Positions 17,228 through 26,729 of a stretch of 64,000 nucleotides of DNA are shown piece after piece. Under the pieces are notes generated by a model. That model was given only the letters and a program-made list of their open reading frames with translations. It had not been told where the DNA came from and made no database searches. Numbering within the stretch: the first letter of the stretch is position 1; every line of letters starts with the position of its first letter. The stretch is from Reyranella sp. (GTDB taxonomy: Bacteria > Pseudomonadota > Alphaproteobacteria > Reyranellales > Reyranellaceae), in the NCBI RefSeq assembly GCF_017305915.1, contig NZ_JAFKJN010000023.1, positions 1 to 64,000 of the forward strand, written 5' to 3'. Position numbers and translations under genes: made by a program.

Positions 17228-18262
17228 TCATTTGGGCGTGTATCCCTGCTTGCCGGTGAACAGGAAGTTCGCCGGGTCGCGCTCGATCTTGGTGGCGATG
17301 ATGTTGAGGTTCGAGGTGAGCTGGCGCAGCTCGCGGATGGCGTAGGAGAGCTCGACCAGCCCGTTCTCGGAGAACTGGCGGATGCCGCCCTTGCTGTCGG
17401 CGACCAGCCGGTTGAGCTGCAGCGCGGCGCCGTCGATGTTGGACAATGCCTTCTGCGCCTCGACCAGCGTCTTGCGCAGGTCGCTCGGCTCCTTGCCGGC
17501 CAGCGCCTTCCTGGTCTCGGCATCCTGGGGGCCGAACTCCATGGCGATCAGGTTGAGCCGGTCGGCGGCGTCGTTGAGCTTGGCGAAGGTCTTCTGGAAC
17601 TCGGCCATCGCCTTGGGCAGTTCGGCCAGCGTCTGCTGGATGTTGGTGTCCTGCTTGGCGATGCCGGCGAGGGTCGTGTTGAGGCTGCGCAGCGAATCGC
17701 TGACCGCCTGGATGTTGTCGGGATTGAGCAGCTCGTTCAGCCGGTCGACCGTGGTGCCGGCCTTGGACAGGAGCTCCTGCGCCGAGGTCGAGGTGACCTG
17801 CAGGAACGAGGCGCCCTCGCGGATCTCGGGGTACGGCTTGTCGCCCAGCTTCTTCTTGGGTTTCACCTGGTCGATGTCGACGCGGCCGACGATCTGCACG
17901 AAGGCGGCGCCGGCGATGAACGGCTTCTCGAACACCGCGTAGGAGCGCTCGCGGATGTCGATTTGGGAATCGACCGCGACCGTGACCTGGATCTTCTCGG
18001 AGAGCCGCTCGCGGCCGGTGCTGCGCTGGGTATCGACCCGCGAGGTCAGCGCGATGTCGTGCACGCGGCCCACCCGCAGGCCGCGATAGTAGACCGGCGA
18101 GTCCTGGGTCAGGCCCTGCACGTCGCTCGAGAACAGGATCACGTAGTAGGCGTACGAGGTCTGGTCGCCGGCGCGCAGCTTCCAGATCACGAAGCCGACG
18201 ACGGCGGCGATGAACAACATCATCGCCGCACCGATCAGGACGTAGGGCGAGCGCTTTTCCAT
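17228..18262 (-). CDS. MlaD/Mce-family substrate-binding protein
   Basis: The periplasmic lipid-binding component of an Mla-type ABC system. The 344-residue protein has an N-terminal membrane anchor (about 8-28), an MCE domain (about 40-125, with VYYRGLRVGRV) and a long alpha-helical C-terminal half (150-320) suited to hexameric tunnel formation. It is much longer than E. coli MlaD because of this helical part, as is common in alphaproteobacteria. It lies in the operon order permease, ATPase, MlaD-like, lipoprotein. Confidence 0.9.
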   Translation of the reverse strand: MEKRSPYVLIGAAMMLFIAAVVGFVIWKLRAGDQTSYAYYVILFSSDVQGLTQDSPVYYRGLRVGRVHDIALTSRVDTQRSTGRERLSEKIQVTVAVDSQIDIRERSYAVFEKPFIAGAAFVQIVGRVDIDQVKPKKKLGDKPYPEIREGASFLQVTSTSAQELLSKAGTTVDRLNELLNPDNIQAVSDSLRSLNTTLAGIAKQDTNIQQTLAELPKAMAEFQKTFAKLNDAADRLNLIAMEFGPQDAETRKALAGKEPSDLRKTLVEAQKALSNIDGAALQLNRLVADSKGGIRQFSENGLVELSYAIRELRQLTSNLNIIATKIERDPANFLFTGKQGYTPK

Positions 18263-18278
18263 GAACCGTTACCGTACT

Positions 18279-19109
18279 CTACGCCTGCTTGAGCGCTGCC
18301 CGGCCGCGCGGACCGTGGAAGTATTCCCGCACCCAGGGATGATCGTAGGCGAGCATTTCTTCCATCGTACCTACCACGACGCGCTTGTCGAGCAGGACGG
18401 CGATGCGGTCGCACACCGCGTGGAGGCTGTCGAGGTCGTGGGTGACCATCAACACGGTCAGGCCCAGACTTTGCCGCAATTGGCCGATCAGCTCGTCGTA
18501 GTGGGCGGCGCCGATCGGGTCGAGGCCGGCGGTCGGCTCGTCCAGGAACAGGAGCTCCGGATCGAGCGCCAGGGCGCGGGCCAGGCTGGCGCGCTTGCGC
18601 ATGCCGCCCGACAGCTCCGAGGGCTTCTTGTCGCCGGTATCGGGCGGCAGACCGACCAGCGCGACCTTGAGGGCGGCGATCGCCTGCATAAACGGCTCGT
18701 CGAGCTCGGCGTGCTCGCGGATCGGCACGATGATGTTGTCGGCCACCGTGAGGGACGAGAACAGCGCGCCGTCCTGGAACTGCACGCCGATGTGGGCCAG
18801 CAGCCGCTGCTCGGCCTTGCCGTGGACGCCGCGGGTGTTCTGGCCCAGGATCTCGATCGAGCCGCGGGCCAGCGGGTTGAGGCCGATGACGGTGCGCAAC
18901 AGCACCGATTTGCCGGTGCCCGAGCCGCCGACCAGCCCGATGACCTCGCCGCGGAAGACGTCGAGGTCGAGCTTGTTGTGGATGACGTGGTCGCCGAACT
19001 GGGTGCGCACGTCACGCAGCTTCAGCACGACCTCGCGGCCGTCGCCATGATCGACGAGCTGGCCACCCTCCAACGTCCTGCCGGCCGGCGCGTCTTCGTC
19101 TGCGCTCAT
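18279..19109 (-). CDS. MlaF-like ABC transporter ATPase
   Basis: The cytoplasmic ATPase of the lipid transporter (276 residues). It has Walker A GGSGTGKS (61-68), Q-loop FQDGALFSSLTV, the signature LSGGM (166-170), Walker B LLFLDEPTAGLDP (186-198) and the switch His in MVTHDLDSL. FQDGALFSSLTV and the modified signature LSGGMRKR are characteristic of the Mla/Mce class. Its ATG overlaps the stop of the permease gene (ATGA), so subunit synthesis is coupled. Confidence 0.93.
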   Translation of the reverse strand: MSADEDAPAGRTLEGGQLVDHGDGREVVLKLRDVRTQFGDHVIHNKLDLDVFRGEVIGLVGGSGTGKSVLLRTVIGLNPLARGSIEILGQNTRGVHGKAEQRLLAHIGVQFQDGALFSSLTVADNIIVPIREHAELDEPFMQAIAALKVALVGLPPDTGDKKPSELSGGMRKRASLARALALDPELLFLDEPTAGLDPIGAAHYDELIGQLRQSLGLTVLMVTHDLDSLHAVCDRIAVLLDKRVVVGTMEEMLAYDHPWVREYFHGPRGRAALKQA

Positions 19110-20236
19110 ACGTTGGCCAGCAGGAAGATGATGGAGAACACCGCGTCGAGCACGATGACGCAGAAGATCGATTCGACCACCGAGCGGGTGGTGAGCTGGC
19201 CGACGCTCTCGGCGCTGCCGCGGACCTGCAAGCCCTCGAAGCAGCCGATCGCGGCGATGATGAAGCCGAACACCGGCGCCTTGATCATGCCGGTGTAGAA
19301 ATGCCAGATGCCGACCGTGTCGCGCAGCCGGTCGAAGAACTGCACGAGGGTGAAATCGAGATAGATCGTGCAGGCGACTGCGCCGCCCAGCAGCCCGGTC
19401 ATGTTGCCCCAGAAGGCGAGCAACGGCATCGACAGCAACAGCGCCATGATGCGCGGCAGGACCAGCCATTCGATCGGGTTGAGCCCGATCGTGCGCATGG
19501 CGTCGACCTCCTGGTTGACCTGCATGGTGCCGATCTGGGCGGTGAAAGCCGAGCCCGAGCGGCCGGCGACGATGATCGCGGTGAGCAGCACGCCCAGCTC
19601 GCGGAACATGCCGATGCCGACCGCCTCGACGGTGAAGGTCTCCGCACCGAATTGTCTCAATTGCTGCACGCCCTGATAGGCGATCACCACGCCGATCAGG
19701 AAGGTGAGCACGCCGACGATCAGCAGCGCCTTGACCCAGACCTCGAACATCTGCTGCACGACCGTGCCGATACGGAAGCGCTTGGGGCTGAGGCAGGCCT
19801 CGAGGAAGACGACGATGATCTCGCCGACGAAGGCGCAGAGATTGGCAATCTGCTTGCCGAGGTCGATCAGGTCGCGCCCGAGCTCTTCCAGCCAGTGGGT
19901 GAGGAAATCGACGTGCCGCGGCCTGGGCGGCTCGTGCATGTTGTCCTTCACCACCTTGAACAGCTCGGCGTGGCCCGGCTCGGCCGTCTTGACTTCGGCC
20001 TTCGGGCCGCCGGCCAGTTGCAGGATCTCGAGCACGCCCGCGGTGTCGAGGCGCTCGACCTTGGTGGCATCGACCGTACTCGCGGCCGCTTTGGACCCGC
20101 CCGGGGCCGCGCGACGGGCCTTGTCGAGCCGTTGCCGCAGCCCCTTCAGGCTGAACACGGTCCAGGTGCCGCCGACCTCCAGCACCGAGGTGCCGCCGCG
20201 CTCGACGTAGCGGATGGTAGGGTGTGGCTCGGCCAT
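19106..20236 (-). CDS. MlaE-like permease with N-terminal STAS domain
   Basis: The membrane subunit of the Mla-type transporter (376 residues). Residues 1-105 form a STAS-like domain (TIRYVERGGTSVLEVGG, then VDATKVERLDTAGVLEIL), which in E. coli is a separate protein, MlaB. The C-terminal part has about five hydrophobic segments and the MlaE hallmarks IVAGRSGSAFTAQIGTM and VNQEVDAMRTIGLNP. The fusion makes the operon self-contained: STAS-permease, ATPase, MCE protein and lipoprotein. It diverges from the PPK2 gene. Confidence 0.92.
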   Translation of the reverse strand: MAEPHPTIRYVERGGTSVLEVGGTWTVFSLKGLRQRLDKARRAAPGGSKAAASTVDATKVERLDTAGVLEILQLAGGPKAEVKTAEPGHAELFKVVKDNMHEPPRPRHVDFLTHWLEELGRDLIDLGKQIANLCAFVGEIIVVFLEACLSPKRFRIGTVVQQMFEVWVKALLIVGVLTFLIGVVIAYQGVQQLRQFGAETFTVEAVGIGMFRELGVLLTAIIVAGRSGSAFTAQIGTMQVNQEVDAMRTIGLNPIEWLVLPRIMALLLSMPLLAFWGNMTGLLGGAVACTIYLDFTLVQFFDRLRDTVGIWHFYTGMIKAPVFGFIIAAIGCFEGLQVRGSAESVGQLTTRSVVESIFCVIVLDAVFSIIFLLANV

Positions 20237-20308: not shown

Positions 20309-21115
20309 ATGAGCAAATGGCCCGTGTTGGACAAGATCAAGTTGATCGACAGTTCTCTGACCGACGAGGAGTACGAGCGTCGCCTGAAGAAGCTGCAGAA
20401 TCAGCTACTGGATCTGCAGGTCCATCACCTGCGGACCGGTGGCCGCGCGATCATCGGCATCGACGGCTGGGATGCCGCCGGCAAAGGCGGCCTGATCCAG
20501 CGCCTGGTGTTCGGGCTGGAACCGCGGTCGGTGCAGGTCTGGCGGATCGGCGCGCCGACGCCCGAGGAACAGGGCAAGCACTTCCTTTGGCGTTTCTGGG
20601 ATCGCGTGCCGGCGCCGCGCAACTGGGCGATCTTCGACCGCACCTGGTACGGCCGCGTCCTGGTCGAGCGGATCGAGGGCTTCTGCAGCAAGGCCGAATG
20701 GCAGCGCGCCTACGACGAGATCAACGAGTTCGAGAAGACGCTGGCCGACTCGGGCGTGCGCTTCGTCAAGCTGCTGGTGCATGTCAGCGAGGAGGAGCAG
20801 AAGAAGCGCATGATCAGCCGGCTCGAGAAGCCGCACAAGCGCTACAAGGTCGGAGTCGAGGACTTCCGCAACATCGCCAAGCGCAAGCAGTATCTCGAAG
20901 CCTACAAGGACATGCTCGACAAGACCGATACCGACCACGCGCCGTGGCATGTCATCGCGACGGACGACAAGCGGCACGAGCGGCTGGCCGGCCTCGAGAT
21001 CGTGGTCGACATCCTGGGCCGCGGCGTGAAGATCGCGCCGCAGGAGCTCGATCCGGAGGTCGCCGCCGGCGCCTTCAAGCTGTGGGGCTGGAAGCCGAAG
21101 AAAGACGAGAAGTAA
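20309..21115 (+). CDS. ppk2: Polyphosphate kinase 2 family protein
   Basis: A thymidylate-kinase-fold phosphotransferase that uses polyphosphate to phosphorylate nucleotides. The single domain of 268 residues has Walker A GWDAAGKGG (53-61), Walker B FDRTWYGRVLVER (109-121) and the lid/helical region KPHKRYKVGVEDFRN. The DRTWYGRVLVER form resembles polyphosphate:AMP phosphotransferases, but the substrate class cannot be settled by eye. The start ATG follows CGGAGGAACTGC, a good ribosome-binding site. The 3' end overlaps the convergent rlmJ by about 40 bases. Confidence 0.9.
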   Translation: MSKWPVLDKIKLIDSSLTDEEYERRLKKLQNQLLDLQVHHLRTGGRAIIGIDGWDAAGKGGLIQRLVFGLEPRSVQVWRIGAPTPEEQGKHFLWRFWDRVPAPRNWAIFDRTWYGRVLVERIEGFCSKAEWQRAYDEINEFEKTLADSGVRFVKLLVHVSEEEQKKRMISRLEKPHKRYKVGVEDFRNIAKRKQYLEAYKDMLDKTDTDHAPWHVIATDDKRHERLAGLEIVVDILGRGVKIAPQELDPEVAAGAFKLWGWKPKKDEK

Positions 21116-21926
21116 GCGCCGGCGTGGCGTCCAGGGCGGCGGCCAGCCACGGCAGCGCCTCGGCCATCGTCTCCTGGAACGTCCAGGGTGGGTTGATCAC
21201 CGCCACGCCGCAGGCGGCGAGCTTGCCCGCGGGCGCCGCCTTCAGGCGCAGTTCCAGGACGAGGGTCTTCAGGCCGGCCAGCGACGCGGTGAAGGCCTCG
21301 ACGGCTTCGTCGTCCTTGATCGGATACCAGATCGCGTAGCAACCGGTGGCGAAGCGGCGCAGCGCCTGCCGGAGAGCGCGCGCCAGCCTGTCGAACTCGT
21401 CGGCCGCCTCGAACGGTGGGTCGATCAGCGCCAGGCCGCGCCGCTCGACCGGCGGCAGCAAGGCCTTCAAGGCGTGCCAGCCGTCGGCCTGGCGGACATC
21501 GACCGCGCGATCGCCGGCGAACTCGCGCTTCAGGGCTAGCACATCCTGCGGATGCAACTCGCAAGCGACGAACCGGTCGCCTGGCCGCAGGCCTGCCCGC
21601 ACCAGCCGCGGCGATCCCGGATAGTGCCGCAGCCCCTCCCCGCGCCCGAACTTGCGATCGTACGCCGCGACGGCCGCCAGATAGCGCGCGACGGCGACCG
21701 GCATGCCGGCGCGCGGCAGCGCCATCAGCCGCGCGATGCCCGCCTCGGCCTCGCGCGTGCGCGCGGCGCGGCCGTCCGTCAGGTCGTAGCCGCCGACGCC
21801 GGCATGGGTGTCGAGTACGAACAGCTTCTTGTCCTTGGCCGTCAGCAGCCGCAGCAGCTCGACCAGCACGACGTGCTTCAGGACGTCGGCGAAGTTGCCG
21901 GCATGGTAGCCGTGTCGGTAATTCAT
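21075..21926 (-). CDS. rlmJ: 23S rRNA (adenine-N6)-methyltransferase, RlmJ family
   Basis: A SAM-dependent enzyme of the family that methylates A2030 of 23S rRNA in E. coli. The 283-residue protein starts with the signature MNYRHGYHAGNFADVLKH, has LDTHAGVGGY (38-47) as SAM-binding region and the catalytic IDPPFE (168-173). The tail of about 20 residues after VINPPW...WLAAAL is Ser/Thr/Ala-rich and is the part that overlaps ppk2. Its ATG overlaps the stop of the upstream archaemetzincin-like gene (ATGA). Confidence 0.92.
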   Translation of the reverse strand: MNYRHGYHAGNFADVLKHVVLVELLRLLTAKDKKLFVLDTHAGVGGYDLTDGRAARTREAEAGIARLMALPRAGMPVAVARYLAAVAAYDRKFGRGEGLRHYPGSPRLVRAGLRPGDRFVACELHPQDVLALKREFAGDRAVDVRQADGWHALKALLPPVERRGLALIDPPFEAADEFDRLARALRQALRRFATGCYAIWYPIKDDEAVEAFTASLAGLKTLVLELRLKAAPAGKLAACGVAVINPPWTFQETMAEALPWLAAALDATPALTSRLSSASSPTA

Positions 21927-22588
21927 CGGACGAGCATGGCGACGGTGTTGCAGGCGCCGAACGGGCGCTCCTTCAGGACACCGGCGACGATCAGCGCTGC
22001 CTTGTCGTCGGGGCAGAACTCGGCCGGCTTATGGTCCAGCTCATCGAGGCTGCGCGGGAAGAGCATGACGCAGCCGTTGGTGCGCAGCCCGGCGAGAAGA
22101 GCGACCGACTTCAGCATCAGCTTGTAGAGGCGATCTCCAGTGACGTCCGAGATTCGCTTGCGCGTCAGCCCGGGTTCGCGCGGCACCAGGCGGACGGTCG
22201 ACATGACGACGTTGAGGTCGCCGTTCAGCTTGGTGCTGGAGAACACGTAGTTCAAACCTTCGACCTTGAGGTCATAGGGCAGGATCAGATAGCGGAAGAC
22301 ACGGCCCTCGCCCATCGTCGCTTGCGCGAACGACCGGCTCACCTTGTCCGGATCGAGCTGGGTCGGTGTGGCGAGATAGCTGCGGTAGAGCGGCAAGTCG
22401 CTGCCAGTCGCCCGCACCGGCGCGACCAGGACCCGCCCCAGCTCGCACACCAGCCCTTCGACGAAGTCGGCATCCTGCTGCGGCATGTCCTTGTGGACGT
22501 GGATCACGACTTCGTCCGGCGGGACGAGCTTTTGCGCGGAGGCGTTGCTCGCCCACATCGCGAGCAACAGAACCAGCCAATACTTCAT
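21923..22588 (-). CDS. Secreted archaemetzincin-like protein lacking the zinc motif
   Basis: A 221-residue protein with a signal peptide (1-18, cleaved near NASA-QK). The layout resembles archaemetzincin (M54) proteases: GLNYVFSSTKLNGDLNVVMSTVRL, then R-K, a helix, then CVM (173-175), a segment LDELDHKPAEF and FC (191-192). Where the family has HExxHxxGxxxC, this protein reads KSVALLAGL (160-168), so all zinc-binding His and the catalytic Glu are missing. The final CxxC is reduced to CPDD. I infer a non-catalytic relative, perhaps a binding protein. It is translationally coupled to rlmJ. Alternatively it is an unrelated family with chance similarity. Confidence 0.6.
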   Translation of the reverse strand: MKYWLVLLLAMWASNASAQKLVPPDEVVIHVHKDMPQQDADFVEGLVCELGRVLVAPVRATGSDLPLYRSYLATPTQLDPDKVSRSFAQATMGEGRVFRYLILPYDLKVEGLNYVFSSTKLNGDLNVVMSTVRLVPREPGLTRKRISDVTGDRLYKLMLKSVALLAGLRTNGCVMLFPRSLDELDHKPAEFCPDDKAALIVAGVLKERPFGACNTVAMLVR

Positions 22589-22648
22589 GGCGATGAGTTT
22601 ACCCGGGGCACGCTTCGTGCTTCAAACCAATGCGCATAGGGGGACCGC

Positions 22649-23587
22649 ATGGCCACGCACGAGCTTCATTCCTCGCCCGAGACCTGCCACTGGGGCTATT
22701 TCGACTGCAAGCTGCCGCCCCAGCTACGCATCAAGTCGGGCGACGTCGCCACCATCCACTGCCTGTCGGGCTCCAAGGACATCCTGCCCGAGCCGCCGAT
22801 GAACGTGCTGCCCGAGCATCGCGAGGTCCTGGCCAAGCTCACGCCTCACCTCGGCCGGCACATCCTGACAGGCCCCGTGCATGTCGAGGGCGCCGAGCGC
22901 GGCGACGTGCTGGCGGTCGAGGTGCTCGACATCAAGTTCCGCACCAACTGGGGCTGGAACGTCCAGCGGCCGCTGGCCGGCACGCTGCCGGAGGATTTCC
23001 CCTTCTACAAGCTGACCCACATCCCGATCGATTCGAACCGCGGCGTCTGCACCCTGCCGTGGGGGCTCGAGGTCGAGCTGCGGCCGTTCTTCGGCATCAT
23101 GGGCGTGGCGCCGCCGGCCGAATGGGGCCAGTGCAGCTCGATCGAGCCGCGCGCCTTCGGCGGCAACATCGACAACAAGCATTTCCAGGTCGGCACCACG
23201 GTCTACTTCCCGGTGTTTGCCGAGGGCGGCCTGTTCTCGACCGGCGACGGCCACGGCGTGCAGGGCGACGGCGAGGTCAACCTGACGGCGCTCGAGACCA
23301 ACCTCTCCGGCACCTTCCGCTTCACCGTGCGCAAGGACATGAAGCTCACCAACCCGCGCGCCGAGACGGCGACGCACTGGATCACCCACGGTTTCGATCC
23401 CGATCTCGACGACGCCGCCAAGGAGGCGCTGCGCGACATGATCCGCCTGATCAGCGCCAAGACCGGCCTGGCGGCGTCGGACGCCTACATGCTGTGCAGC
23501 CTGCAGGCCGACCTTCACGTCACCCAGACGGTGGACGGCAACAAGGGCATCCACTGCATGATCGAGAAGAAGCTGATCGGCGGGTAA
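22649..23587 (+). CDS. Acetamidase/formamidase family protein
   Basis: Hydrolyses short amides such as formamide or acetamide to the acid and ammonia, by family. The 312-residue protein has the conserved GPVHVEGAERGDVLAVEV (75-92), the metal-site segment GDGHGVQGDGEV (199-210) and the C-terminal DLHVTQTVDGNKGIHCMI. The start ATG has AGGGGG upstream. It is convergent with an MFS gene across only four bases. Some members act on other amides, so the exact substrate is open. Confidence 0.88.
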   Translation: MATHELHSSPETCHWGYFDCKLPPQLRIKSGDVATIHCLSGSKDILPEPPMNVLPEHREVLAKLTPHLGRHILTGPVHVEGAERGDVLAVEVLDIKFRTNWGWNVQRPLAGTLPEDFPFYKLTHIPIDSNRGVCTLPWGLEVELRPFFGIMGVAPPAEWGQCSSIEPRAFGGNIDNKHFQVGTTVYFPVFAEGGLFSTGDGHGVQGDGEVNLTALETNLSGTFRFTVRKDMKLTNPRAETATHWITHGFDPDLDDAAKEALRDMIRLISAKTGLAASDAYMLCSLQADLHVTQTVDGNKGIHCMIEKKLIGG

Positions 23588-23591
23588 CCGA

Positions 23592-24800
23592 TCAGGCCGG
23601 TTGCGGCGCCGAACGCTGCGGCACCGGGGCCGAGGGGAAGGCGAGCGCGATCCCGGCGGCGGCGAGCCCCATGATCAGCGAGCCGAGATAGAGCCAGCCG
23701 TAGGTCCCGAAGGTGTCGAAGATCCAGCCGCCGACCGCCGGTCCGAGCGACATGCCGAGGCTGGCGATCAGCGAGCTGGCGCCGATCACGGTGCCCATGA
23801 TGCGCATCGGGAAGTATTCGCGGGCGATCACGGCATAGAGCGGCATGACGCCGCCGTAAGCCAGGCCGAAGACCACGGCGACGGCGTAGAACTCGCCGAT
23901 CTGCCGGGTGAAGTAGTAGGCGCCCGCGCCCAGCGCCTGGACGACGAGCGCGAAGATCACCGTCTGCTTGGCGCCGAACTTGTCGCCGGCGAGGCCGAAC
24001 AGCAGGCGGCCGCCGAGGCCGGCCAGCCCCTCGATGCTGTAGATCGACACCGCCGTCAGCGCGGGGATGCCGCAGGCGATGGCGTAGCTCACGGTGTGGA
24101 AGATCGGTCCGGAGTGGGTGGCGCAGCAGAAGAAATAGGTGAGCCCGAGGATGATGAACTGCGGCGAGCGCAGCGCCTGCCCCACCGTCATGCCGGGATC
24201 GGCGCCGCCCGGCGTCGCCGCCATGCCGGGAGCGGTTTCCGGGGCACGGCGCATGAACAGCGCCGCGGGGATCATCAGGACCCAGCAGACAATCGCGATG
24301 ATGAGCTGCGCGCTCCGCCAGTCGTGGCTCGTCAACAGCCAGCTGGCGAGCGGCGAGATCGTCATCGGGCCCATGCCCATGCCGGCCGACACCAGCGAGA
24401 CCGCGATGGCACGGTGCTTGTCGAACCAGCCGGTGACCGTGGCCATGGTCGGCGCCAGCACCGCCCCGGCCGCGATGCCCACGATGACGCCGTAGACCAG
24501 CTGGAACTCGAGGAGGCTGCTGGCCTGGCTCGCCAAGGCGAGGCCCGCGCCGCTCAGCACCGCGCCCGCCAGCACGACCGGCCGCGGCCCGTAGCGGTCG
24601 GTCAAAGCGCCCCAGCCGAAGGCCGCGATGCCCATCGTCAGGAAGTCCAGGGTCATCGCCGTCGAGATGCCGGTGCGCGACCAGCCGGTCGCCTCCGACA
24701 TCGGCTGCAGGAACACCGCCAGCGAGAACAACGCGCCGATCGCGACGCAGCCCATCATCGCGCCCGCCGCCACTATGACCCAACCGTACTGGAGCCTCAT
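23592..24800 (-). CDS. MFS transporter (first of a paralogous pair)
   Basis: A 402-residue twelve-helix major facilitator. The N-terminus YGWVIVAAGAMMG, the loop GALTDRYGPRPVVLAG (helix 2-3 motif A) and GWSRTGISTAMTLDFL place it with the monocarboxylate/oxalate-formate antiporter-like branch. Its closest visible relative is the MFS at 25410, which shares helix after helix (for example YGWV at the start, DRYGPRPVVL versus DRWGTRPVVL, SAGMGMGP versus SAGMGMSP), so the pair arose by duplication. A strong palindrome lies just upstream of the start. The proximity of an amidase suggests transport of a small organic acid, as inference only. Confidence 0.88.
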   Translation of the reverse strand: MRLQYGWVIVAAGAMMGCVAIGALFSLAVFLQPMSEATGWSRTGISTAMTLDFLTMGIAAFGWGALTDRYGPRPVVLAGAVLSGAGLALASQASSLLEFQLVYGVIVGIAAGAVLAPTMATVTGWFDKHRAIAVSLVSAGMGMGPMTISPLASWLLTSHDWRSAQLIIAIVCWVLMIPAALFMRRAPETAPGMAATPGGADPGMTVGQALRSPQFIILGLTYFFCCATHSGPIFHTVSYAIACGIPALTAVSIYSIEGLAGLGGRLLFGLAGDKFGAKQTVIFALVVQALGAGAYYFTRQIGEFYAVAVVFGLAYGGVMPLYAVIAREYFPMRIMGTVIGASSLIASLGMSLGPAVGGWIFDTFGTYGWLYLGSLIMGLAAAGIALAFPSAPVPQRSAPQPA

Positions 24801-25409: not shown

Positions 25410-26633
25410 TCAGGCTGGTTGCATGCTGAGCGGTTGCGGCCGCGCTACCGGTTTGAACGTGAGGGCGATGGCCATGGCGCCGAGCCCGATCCCGAACGAG
25501 CCGATATAGAGCCAACCATAGCCGTTGAAGGTGTCGAACACCCAACCGCCGGCGACCGGCCCGAACGCCATGCCGAAGCTCGCCGCGGCCGACACCGCGC
25601 CGAACACCGTGCCCATGATCCTGATGCCGAAATACTCGCGCACCAGCGTGGCGTAGAGCGGCATCACCCCGCCATAGGCGAGCGCGAACACCACCGCGAG
25701 GGCATAGAACTCGCCGAGCTGGCTGACGAAGTAGTAGGTGCCGGCCGCCGCCGCCTGCAGCGCAAGGCCGGCCACCAGCACCGGCTTGGCGCCGAGCTTG
25801 TCCGAGGCGATGCCGAGCAGCAGCCGGCCGCCCAGTCCCGACAGGCCGGCCACGCTGTAGACGCTGACCGCCGCCATCGGCGCGATGCCGCACACCATCG
25901 CGTAGGTCACCATGTGGAAGATCGGGCCGGAGTGCGCCGCGCAGCAGGCGAAGTGGGTCAGCGCCAGCGCCACGAATGCGGAGGTGCGGAAGGCCTGCGC
26001 CGCCGTCATCGGCGGCTCCGCCGGCACGGTGCGCAGCGGATGATCGGGCATGCCCTGCGGCGGGATGACGGGCGGCGGCTTGCGGATCAGCATCGCCACC
26101 GGAAGCAGCAGCACGATCGCGACGATGCCCTGCACCAGCATGGCGGTGCGCCAGTCATAGGCGCTGATCAGCCAACGCACGAACGGCGCCACCACCAGCG
26201 GCGACATGCCCATGCCGGCCGAGACCAGCGACACCGCCAGATTGCGCTGGCGGTCGAACCAGGCCGACGCAATGGTCATCAGCGGCGCGTAGACGCTGCC
26301 GCCGGCCACGCCGACCAGCAGTCCGAACACGAGCTCGAACTGGGCGAGGGTCGTGGCGCGGCTGGCGGCGATCAGGCCGATGCCCAGCAGCACCACGCCC
26401 GACAGCACGACCGGCCGGGTGCCCCAGCGGTCGTTCAGCCAGCCCCAGCCGAAGGCCGACGCGCCCATCGCCAGGAACACCAGGGTTCCCGCGCTCGACA
26501 CGCCGGTGCGTGACCATCCGGTGTCCTCGGCCATCGGCTGCAGGAACACGCCCAGCGACAGGCAGCTGCCCATCGCCATGCAACTGATCAGCATGCCGGC
26601 GCCAACCACCACCCATCCGTAGGCGATCTTCAT
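25410..26633 (-). CDS. MFS transporter (second of a paralogous pair)
   Basis: A 407-residue twelve-helix transporter paralogous to the one at 23592. The start KIAYGWVVVGAGMLI aligns with the RLQYGWVIV start of its partner, which is why I take the ATG at 26633 rather than a TTG two codons upstream. Motif A is WLNDRWGTRPVVLSG. The two transporters and the cytochrome between them form a unit of the same direction. Substrate unknown; the family includes monocarboxylate and oxalate carriers. Confidence 0.88.
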   Translation of the reverse strand: MKIAYGWVVVGAGMLISCMAMGSCLSLGVFLQPMAEDTGWSRTGVSSAGTLVFLAMGASAFGWGWLNDRWGTRPVVLSGVVLLGIGLIAASRATTLAQFELVFGLLVGVAGGSVYAPLMTIASAWFDRQRNLAVSLVSAGMGMSPLVVAPFVRWLISAYDWRTAMLVQGIVAIVLLLPVAMLIRKPPPVIPPQGMPDHPLRTVPAEPPMTAAQAFRTSAFVALALTHFACCAAHSGPIFHMVTYAMVCGIAPMAAVSVYSVAGLSGLGGRLLLGIASDKLGAKPVLVAGLALQAAAAGTYYFVSQLGEFYALAVVFALAYGGVMPLYATLVREYFGIRIMGTVFGAVSAAASFGMAFGPVAGGWVFDTFNGYGWLYIGSFGIGLGAMAIALTFKPVARPQPLSMQPA

Positions 26634-26729
26634 GCGCAACCCCGTCGTCCTCCCCGGGCTCCTCCGGCGCGCAACCGCACGCGGCCGGCTTCGTTGAAGT
26701 CGTCAGCCCAGCCTGAAGGAGAAATAACA

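Follow-up and report, generated by a model that had tools for sequence, protein, structure and literature searches.

The understanding of archaemetzincins is limited: structures have been solved by crystallography, but for some members no activity is detectable on standard substrates. The archaemetzincin signature reads HEXXHXXGXXHCX4CXMX17CXXC, and at the place of the archaemetzincin zinc finger other metzincins have two disulfides (PMC3427221). CarG of Myxococcus xanthus is a catalytically dead archaemetzincin that acts in the cytoplasm as a transcription co-regulator (PMC3427221, PMC9304148); the Glu of its HExxH motif is replaced by Gln, and the damage in human AMZ1 is confined to a replacement of the third His (PMC3427221).

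The window analyzed here, a stretch of 64,000 nucleotides from Reyranella sp., contains a gene, referred to as X, which codes for an archaemetzincin homologue. Its features and neighbours are listed in Table 1.

Table 1. Positions in the window of gene X, its sequence features and its surroundings
Feature	Position	Strand	Remark
rlmJ (PF04378)	21075..21926	-	ATGA: X stop overlaps rlmJ start
X, pseudo-archaemetzincin, putatively exported	21923..22588	-	221 aa, ATG start; predicted signal peptide 1-18, mature from Q19
C192-P-D-D195	22004..22015	-	position of the archaemetzincin CxxC; C192 and D195 invariant in 8 members
C173-V-M175, Met-turn region	22064..22072	-	second zinc-finger Cys kept
Active-site helix position, HExxHxxGL expected	22085..22111	-	reads K160-S-V-A-L-L-A-G-L168
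N113-Y-V-F116	22241..22252	-	equivalent to NFVF, the archaemetzincin edge strand that faces the substrate
Predicted signal peptide MKYWLVLLLAMWASNASA	22535..22588	-	hydrophobic stretch and A-x-A-type site
Inverted repeat GCACG-CTT-CGTGC	22608..22620	.	divergent intergenic region, adjoins the TTGAAGCA box
Acetamidase/formamidase gene (PF03069)	22649..23587	+	divergent from X

Homology to archaemetzincins and predicted fold

The X protein matched the NCBIfam archaemetzincin model NF033823 with an E value of 1.3e-11 over nearly the whole domain (residues 40-194 against positions 12-165 of 170) and the Pfam model PF07998 (M54) with 5e-5, and a phmmer comparison with the archaemetzincins in the PDB yielded 5e-6; a chance resemblance was rejected on these values. 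The scores lie below the curated cut-offs of both family models (44.7 bits against 145 for NF033823; 23.7 bits, just below 24.4, for PF07998), and two relatives of X barely reach that of PF07998. Nevertheless, all eight members of the X family were significant against both models. A profile built from the eight members retrieved the PDB entries of AfAmzA, MkAmzA and MlAmzA with E values of 9e-11, 4e-8 and 7e-6, respectively, the match to MlAmzA being particularly close in the C-terminal part (GCIMYCPRNLDELDRKRKYFC vs GCVMLFPRSLDELDHKPAEFC), and profile-profile comparison of the family against four HExxH-containing archaemetzincin sequences or fragments gave a probability of 96.5%. The model of non-proteolytic archaemetzincins, NF033824, which we take from its name to be the CarG model, was matched by one of the eight members, at an E value of 0.006.

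AlphaFold2 modeling of mature X with the eight orthologues resulted in a pLDDT of 75.1 and a pTM of 0.78, with all five models at 70-75. The three best Foldseek matches of this model in the PDB were archaemetzincins (2x7m, 1.3e-5; 3lmc, 2.3e-5; 3zvs, 4.3e-5; probability 1.00), followed by snake-venom and ADAM metzincins; a non-metzincin fold was not seen. The model thus has the archaemetzincin fold, which it supports in outline and not in detail, as TM-scores for the three matches were moderate (0.52-0.58 normalized to the query, 0.61-0.63 to the target); least supported are model residues 97-107, directly after the edge strand, where pLDDT falls below 50. This model superseded a weak one of the full precursor (pLDDT 60), for which 3lmc and 2x7m were the only confident fold matches. 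Profiles and fold together show that X is a true, diverged archaemetzincin homologue. The order of conserved pieces from which the sequence-only reading had recognized this kinship is present, and both the M54 profile search and the structural comparison it had proposed came out in its favour.

In samples of 398 genomes at the phylum level and 385 at the class level, no protein passed the curated cut-off of NF033823. Most hits of this model elsewhere in Pseudomonadota belonged to different HExxH metalloproteases with the zinc motif alone in common, and were rejected. Two alphaproteobacterial genomes of 1.2-1.5 Mb encode archaemetzincin-like proteins (L109, 1339-2139; L110, 1285-1956) that lack a signal peptide and retain HExxH and CxxC intact; an insert separates their active-site helix from the HC pair. 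In a 413-residue protein from elsewhere in the phylum (L026, 1261-2502, in G617), the N-terminal part resembles archaemetzincins (NF033823, E 8e-5), its zinc motif is damaged (CIRSLGHLNGL), and membrane helices come after it; relatives of this protein match mainly in the membrane part; it is possibly a second, unrelated dead archaemetzincin.

Zinc ligands, cysteines and export signal

At the active-site helix, K160, S161 and L164 occupy the zinc-ligand H, E and H positions of HExxH, and a two-residue deletion takes in the position of the third His as well as that of Cys 1 of the zinc finger. The reading KSVALLAGL in place of HExxHxxGxxxC, as noted from the window alone, was thus seen again, and KSVALLAGL or equivalents replace HExxHxxGxxH throughout the family: none of the eight members has HExxH or the third His, not even the most distant (43% identity), so that a merely local loss is not borne out. 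The four-Cys zinc site, Cx4CxMx17CxxC, keeps its second and third Cys, while the fourth is Asp in all members, in agreement with the earlier reading of the last CxxC as CPDD. C173 is invariant; M175 is found in seven members and is Leu in the eighth (G082). Y114, V115 and F116 of the edge strand are invariant as well. Several mature members contain one or two His in all, which makes a three-His catalytic zinc site impossible in them. The absence of the ligands from all members shows that X is unable to bind either of the two zincs in the manner established for its relatives.

The N-terminus of X, with K2, the hydrophobic segment WLVLLLAMW and the site A-S-A-Q, has the layout of the signal peptide that had been proposed; the same layout is found in all eight orthologues and points to export of X. 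An archaemetzincin of Bernardetia combines an intact HExxH with a lipoprotein-type N-terminus. Mature members of the X family contain exactly four Cys, all of them invariant (residues 48, 173, 192 and 213 in X). The disulfide pattern of other metzincins, taken together with the signal peptide, suggests that the zinc finger of X has been replaced by disulfides; two bonds among C48, C173, C192 and C213 would probably stand in for it as a clamp of the fold outside the cytoplasm.

Genomic context, distribution and origin

X is flanked by rlmJ (product against PF04378, E 3e-71) and the acetamidase/formamidase gene in all eight members and not by a carD operon of the CarG type. The ATGA overlap with rlmJ is likewise kept in all eight orthologues, and the two genes probably form a single transcript by way of it; nothing ties the function of X to RlmJ. 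Farther out in the window, two similar genes of MFS transporters on the same strand (23592-24800 and 25410-26639), perhaps a duplication, enclose a gene resembling that of a c-type cytochrome (CHDCH motif), and mlaE-mlaD type lipid transport genes with a putative ATPase gene in between are located at 17228-20236.

The 60 bases between X and the divergent gene (22589-22648) contain a TTGAAGCA box beside a short inverted repeat, both kept across much of Reyranella, the box and GCACG-N3-CGTGC-like repeats being common to X-bearing and X-lacking genomes. The repeat in G073 shows one paired change (GCATG-AAG-CATGC). Box and repeat are perhaps an operator.

Only eight of 75 family genomes carry X, all of them within one genus, Reyranella (8 of 65 genomes); X occurs in some soil- and water-dwelling Reyranella, and Reyranella soli NBRC 108950 and Enhydrobacter aerosaccus ATCC 27094 are among the relatives with the gene. 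Since it is absent from the other 57 genomes of its own genus, X is dispensable. All 71 family genomes compared have rlmJ and the acetamidase gene as a pair; 63 of these genomes lack X and have 44-325 bases between the two genes; a six-frame profile search found no relics of X in the 63. Relatives of X were not found in viral contigs, plasmids or phages. Four loci from a viral scan with an AmzA fragment as query were rejected, as none had an HExxH frame and the translations of two (L104, L105) were no archaemetzincins.

In 46 of the 63 X-lacking genomes, rlmJ is closely preceded, at a distance of a few bases, by a TATAG- or TATAC-type box; these 46 include seven from other genera of the family, which branch outside Reyranella. 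The box is missing from all eight X-bearing genomes because X extends to the rlmJ start. The occurrence of the box in X-lacking genomes, including those of the outside genera, indicates that lack of X is probably the ancestral state and that X arrived within the rlmJ promoter region. On the tree of the flanking proteins, the presence of X requires at least six changes on well-supported branches. Comparison of the X gene tree with the flank tree did not reject vertical descent of G000 with G073 (p 0.41), the X tree being short of signal. One X-lacking genome (G086, locus L056) has a 229-base spacer with neither X nor the TATAG box, in which an X-type leader is kept that is related to the leader of its X-bearing sister G011; this spacer resembles what a deletion of X would leave behind. 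The remaining absences suggest either whole-allele exchange between relatives or several gains. Long inverted repeats, possibly small mobile repeat elements, are found directly before rlmJ in the enlarged spacers of G062 (L058) and G071 (L063).

Function and comparison with known metzincins

The explanation which we favour, with a probability of roughly 0.6, is that X is a diverged exported archaemetzincin without zinc, clamped by disulfides, whose cleft binds a peptide or protein as a periplasmic pseudoprotease. The retained cleft (edge strand NYVF, Met-turn and S1' wall) would most likely serve as the binding surface in the periplasm and, because a catalytic zinc is lacking, would most likely bind and not cut, so that X may be a binder, scaffold or decoy. 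The absence of the zinc ligands predicts that X has no zinc-dependent peptidase activity. As the defining zinc sites are absent, X is an archaemetzincin-fold pseudoprotease and ought not to be classified among the archaemetzincin peptidases. More tentatively, the fold may have been rebuilt for the periplasm, with disulfides and no zinc, and given a new non-proteolytic job, as a ligand receptor or with a new enzyme activity, in an optional insert that moves between members of one genus and seized the promoter of the housekeeping gene rlmJ.

Inactive proteases can govern active ones, as MamO, a dead protease of magnetotactic bacteria, activates the protease MamE (PMC4794232). By analogy, X could serve as a subunit, structural or regulatory, through which a true periplasmic protease is inhibited or activated. 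However, the genome of the window yielded no second archaemetzincin that is intact, and neither rlmJ nor the acetamidase gene, the fixed neighbours of X, codes for a protease, which makes this rather unlikely. That X is an enzyme with a new catalytic site on the metzincin fold, metal-free or with another metal, we consider unlikely: the invariant residues H32, D41, D64, D106, S130, E183 and D185 and the nearly invariant K160 might form such a site, but they correspond to no known catalytic motif, maintenance of the fold or binding would also explain them, and a precedent among archaemetzincins was not found in the literature searched. It is quite unlikely that X is a decaying, functionless remnant of a former protease gene. 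Its patchy presence, its clean absence from most relatives and its divergence, which is faster than that of rlmJ and the acetamidase gene, would fit decay. However, all eight frames are intact, the Cys, Y-V-F, E-L-D-x-K and C-x-x-D positions are invariant, and the dN/dS ratios of the three closest X pairs (0.23, 0.29 and 0.26; 0.18 for rlmJ in the single comparable close pair) argue that X is under purifying selection and not decaying. A role as transcription co-regulator, for which CarG is the characterized inactive archaemetzincin (PMC9304148) and to which the weak match of one member to the non-proteolytic model might point, is hardly tenable and was rejected, because all members have an export signal, whereas CarG acts intracellularly together with CarD, whose gene adjoins its own.

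A description of X was not found in the part of the literature covered. The suggestion that a conserved family of exported pseudo-metalloproteases would be new holds for the combination, in a single genus, of export with the absence of both zinc sites in a conserved family; its components have precedents in dead archaemetzincins such as CarG and in the export of the Bernardetia protein. A lineage without both zinc sites that is kept by selection means that the fold is useful apart from cutting, and the X family offers a clean test of what the archaemetzincin cleft binds. The locus is, moreover, a simple natural case of presence and absence between two fixed neighbours.

X shares its fold, by model and profile, with the archaemetzincins (MEROPS M54; AmzA of Archaeoglobus, Methanopyrus and Methanocorpusculum; NF033823, PF07998), as well as the order of edge strand, VxSxxRL strand, helix, Cys-x-Met turn, DELDxK and FC. 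Unlike these, it lacks HExxHxxGxxH and two of the four zinc-finger Cys, and has a signal peptide and two extra invariant Cys (C48 and C213). Human ADAM22, which is without protease activity, was among the Foldseek matches, and its complex with LGI1 is named in PDB entry titles. It resembles X in being an extracytoplasmic, disulfide-bonded metzincin domain, but is a multidomain membrane receptor of another metzincin family without a sequence match to X. Human AMZ1 also has a damaged zinc site, but its loss is limited to the third His. CarG (NF033824, Myxo_non_zincin) is, like X, an archaemetzincin relative without protease activity; however, it is intracellular and binds the transcription factor CarD, whereas X carries an export signal and has lost all catalytic zinc ligands. 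X is a distinct exported branch, more strongly degenerate than the known inactive archaemetzincins.
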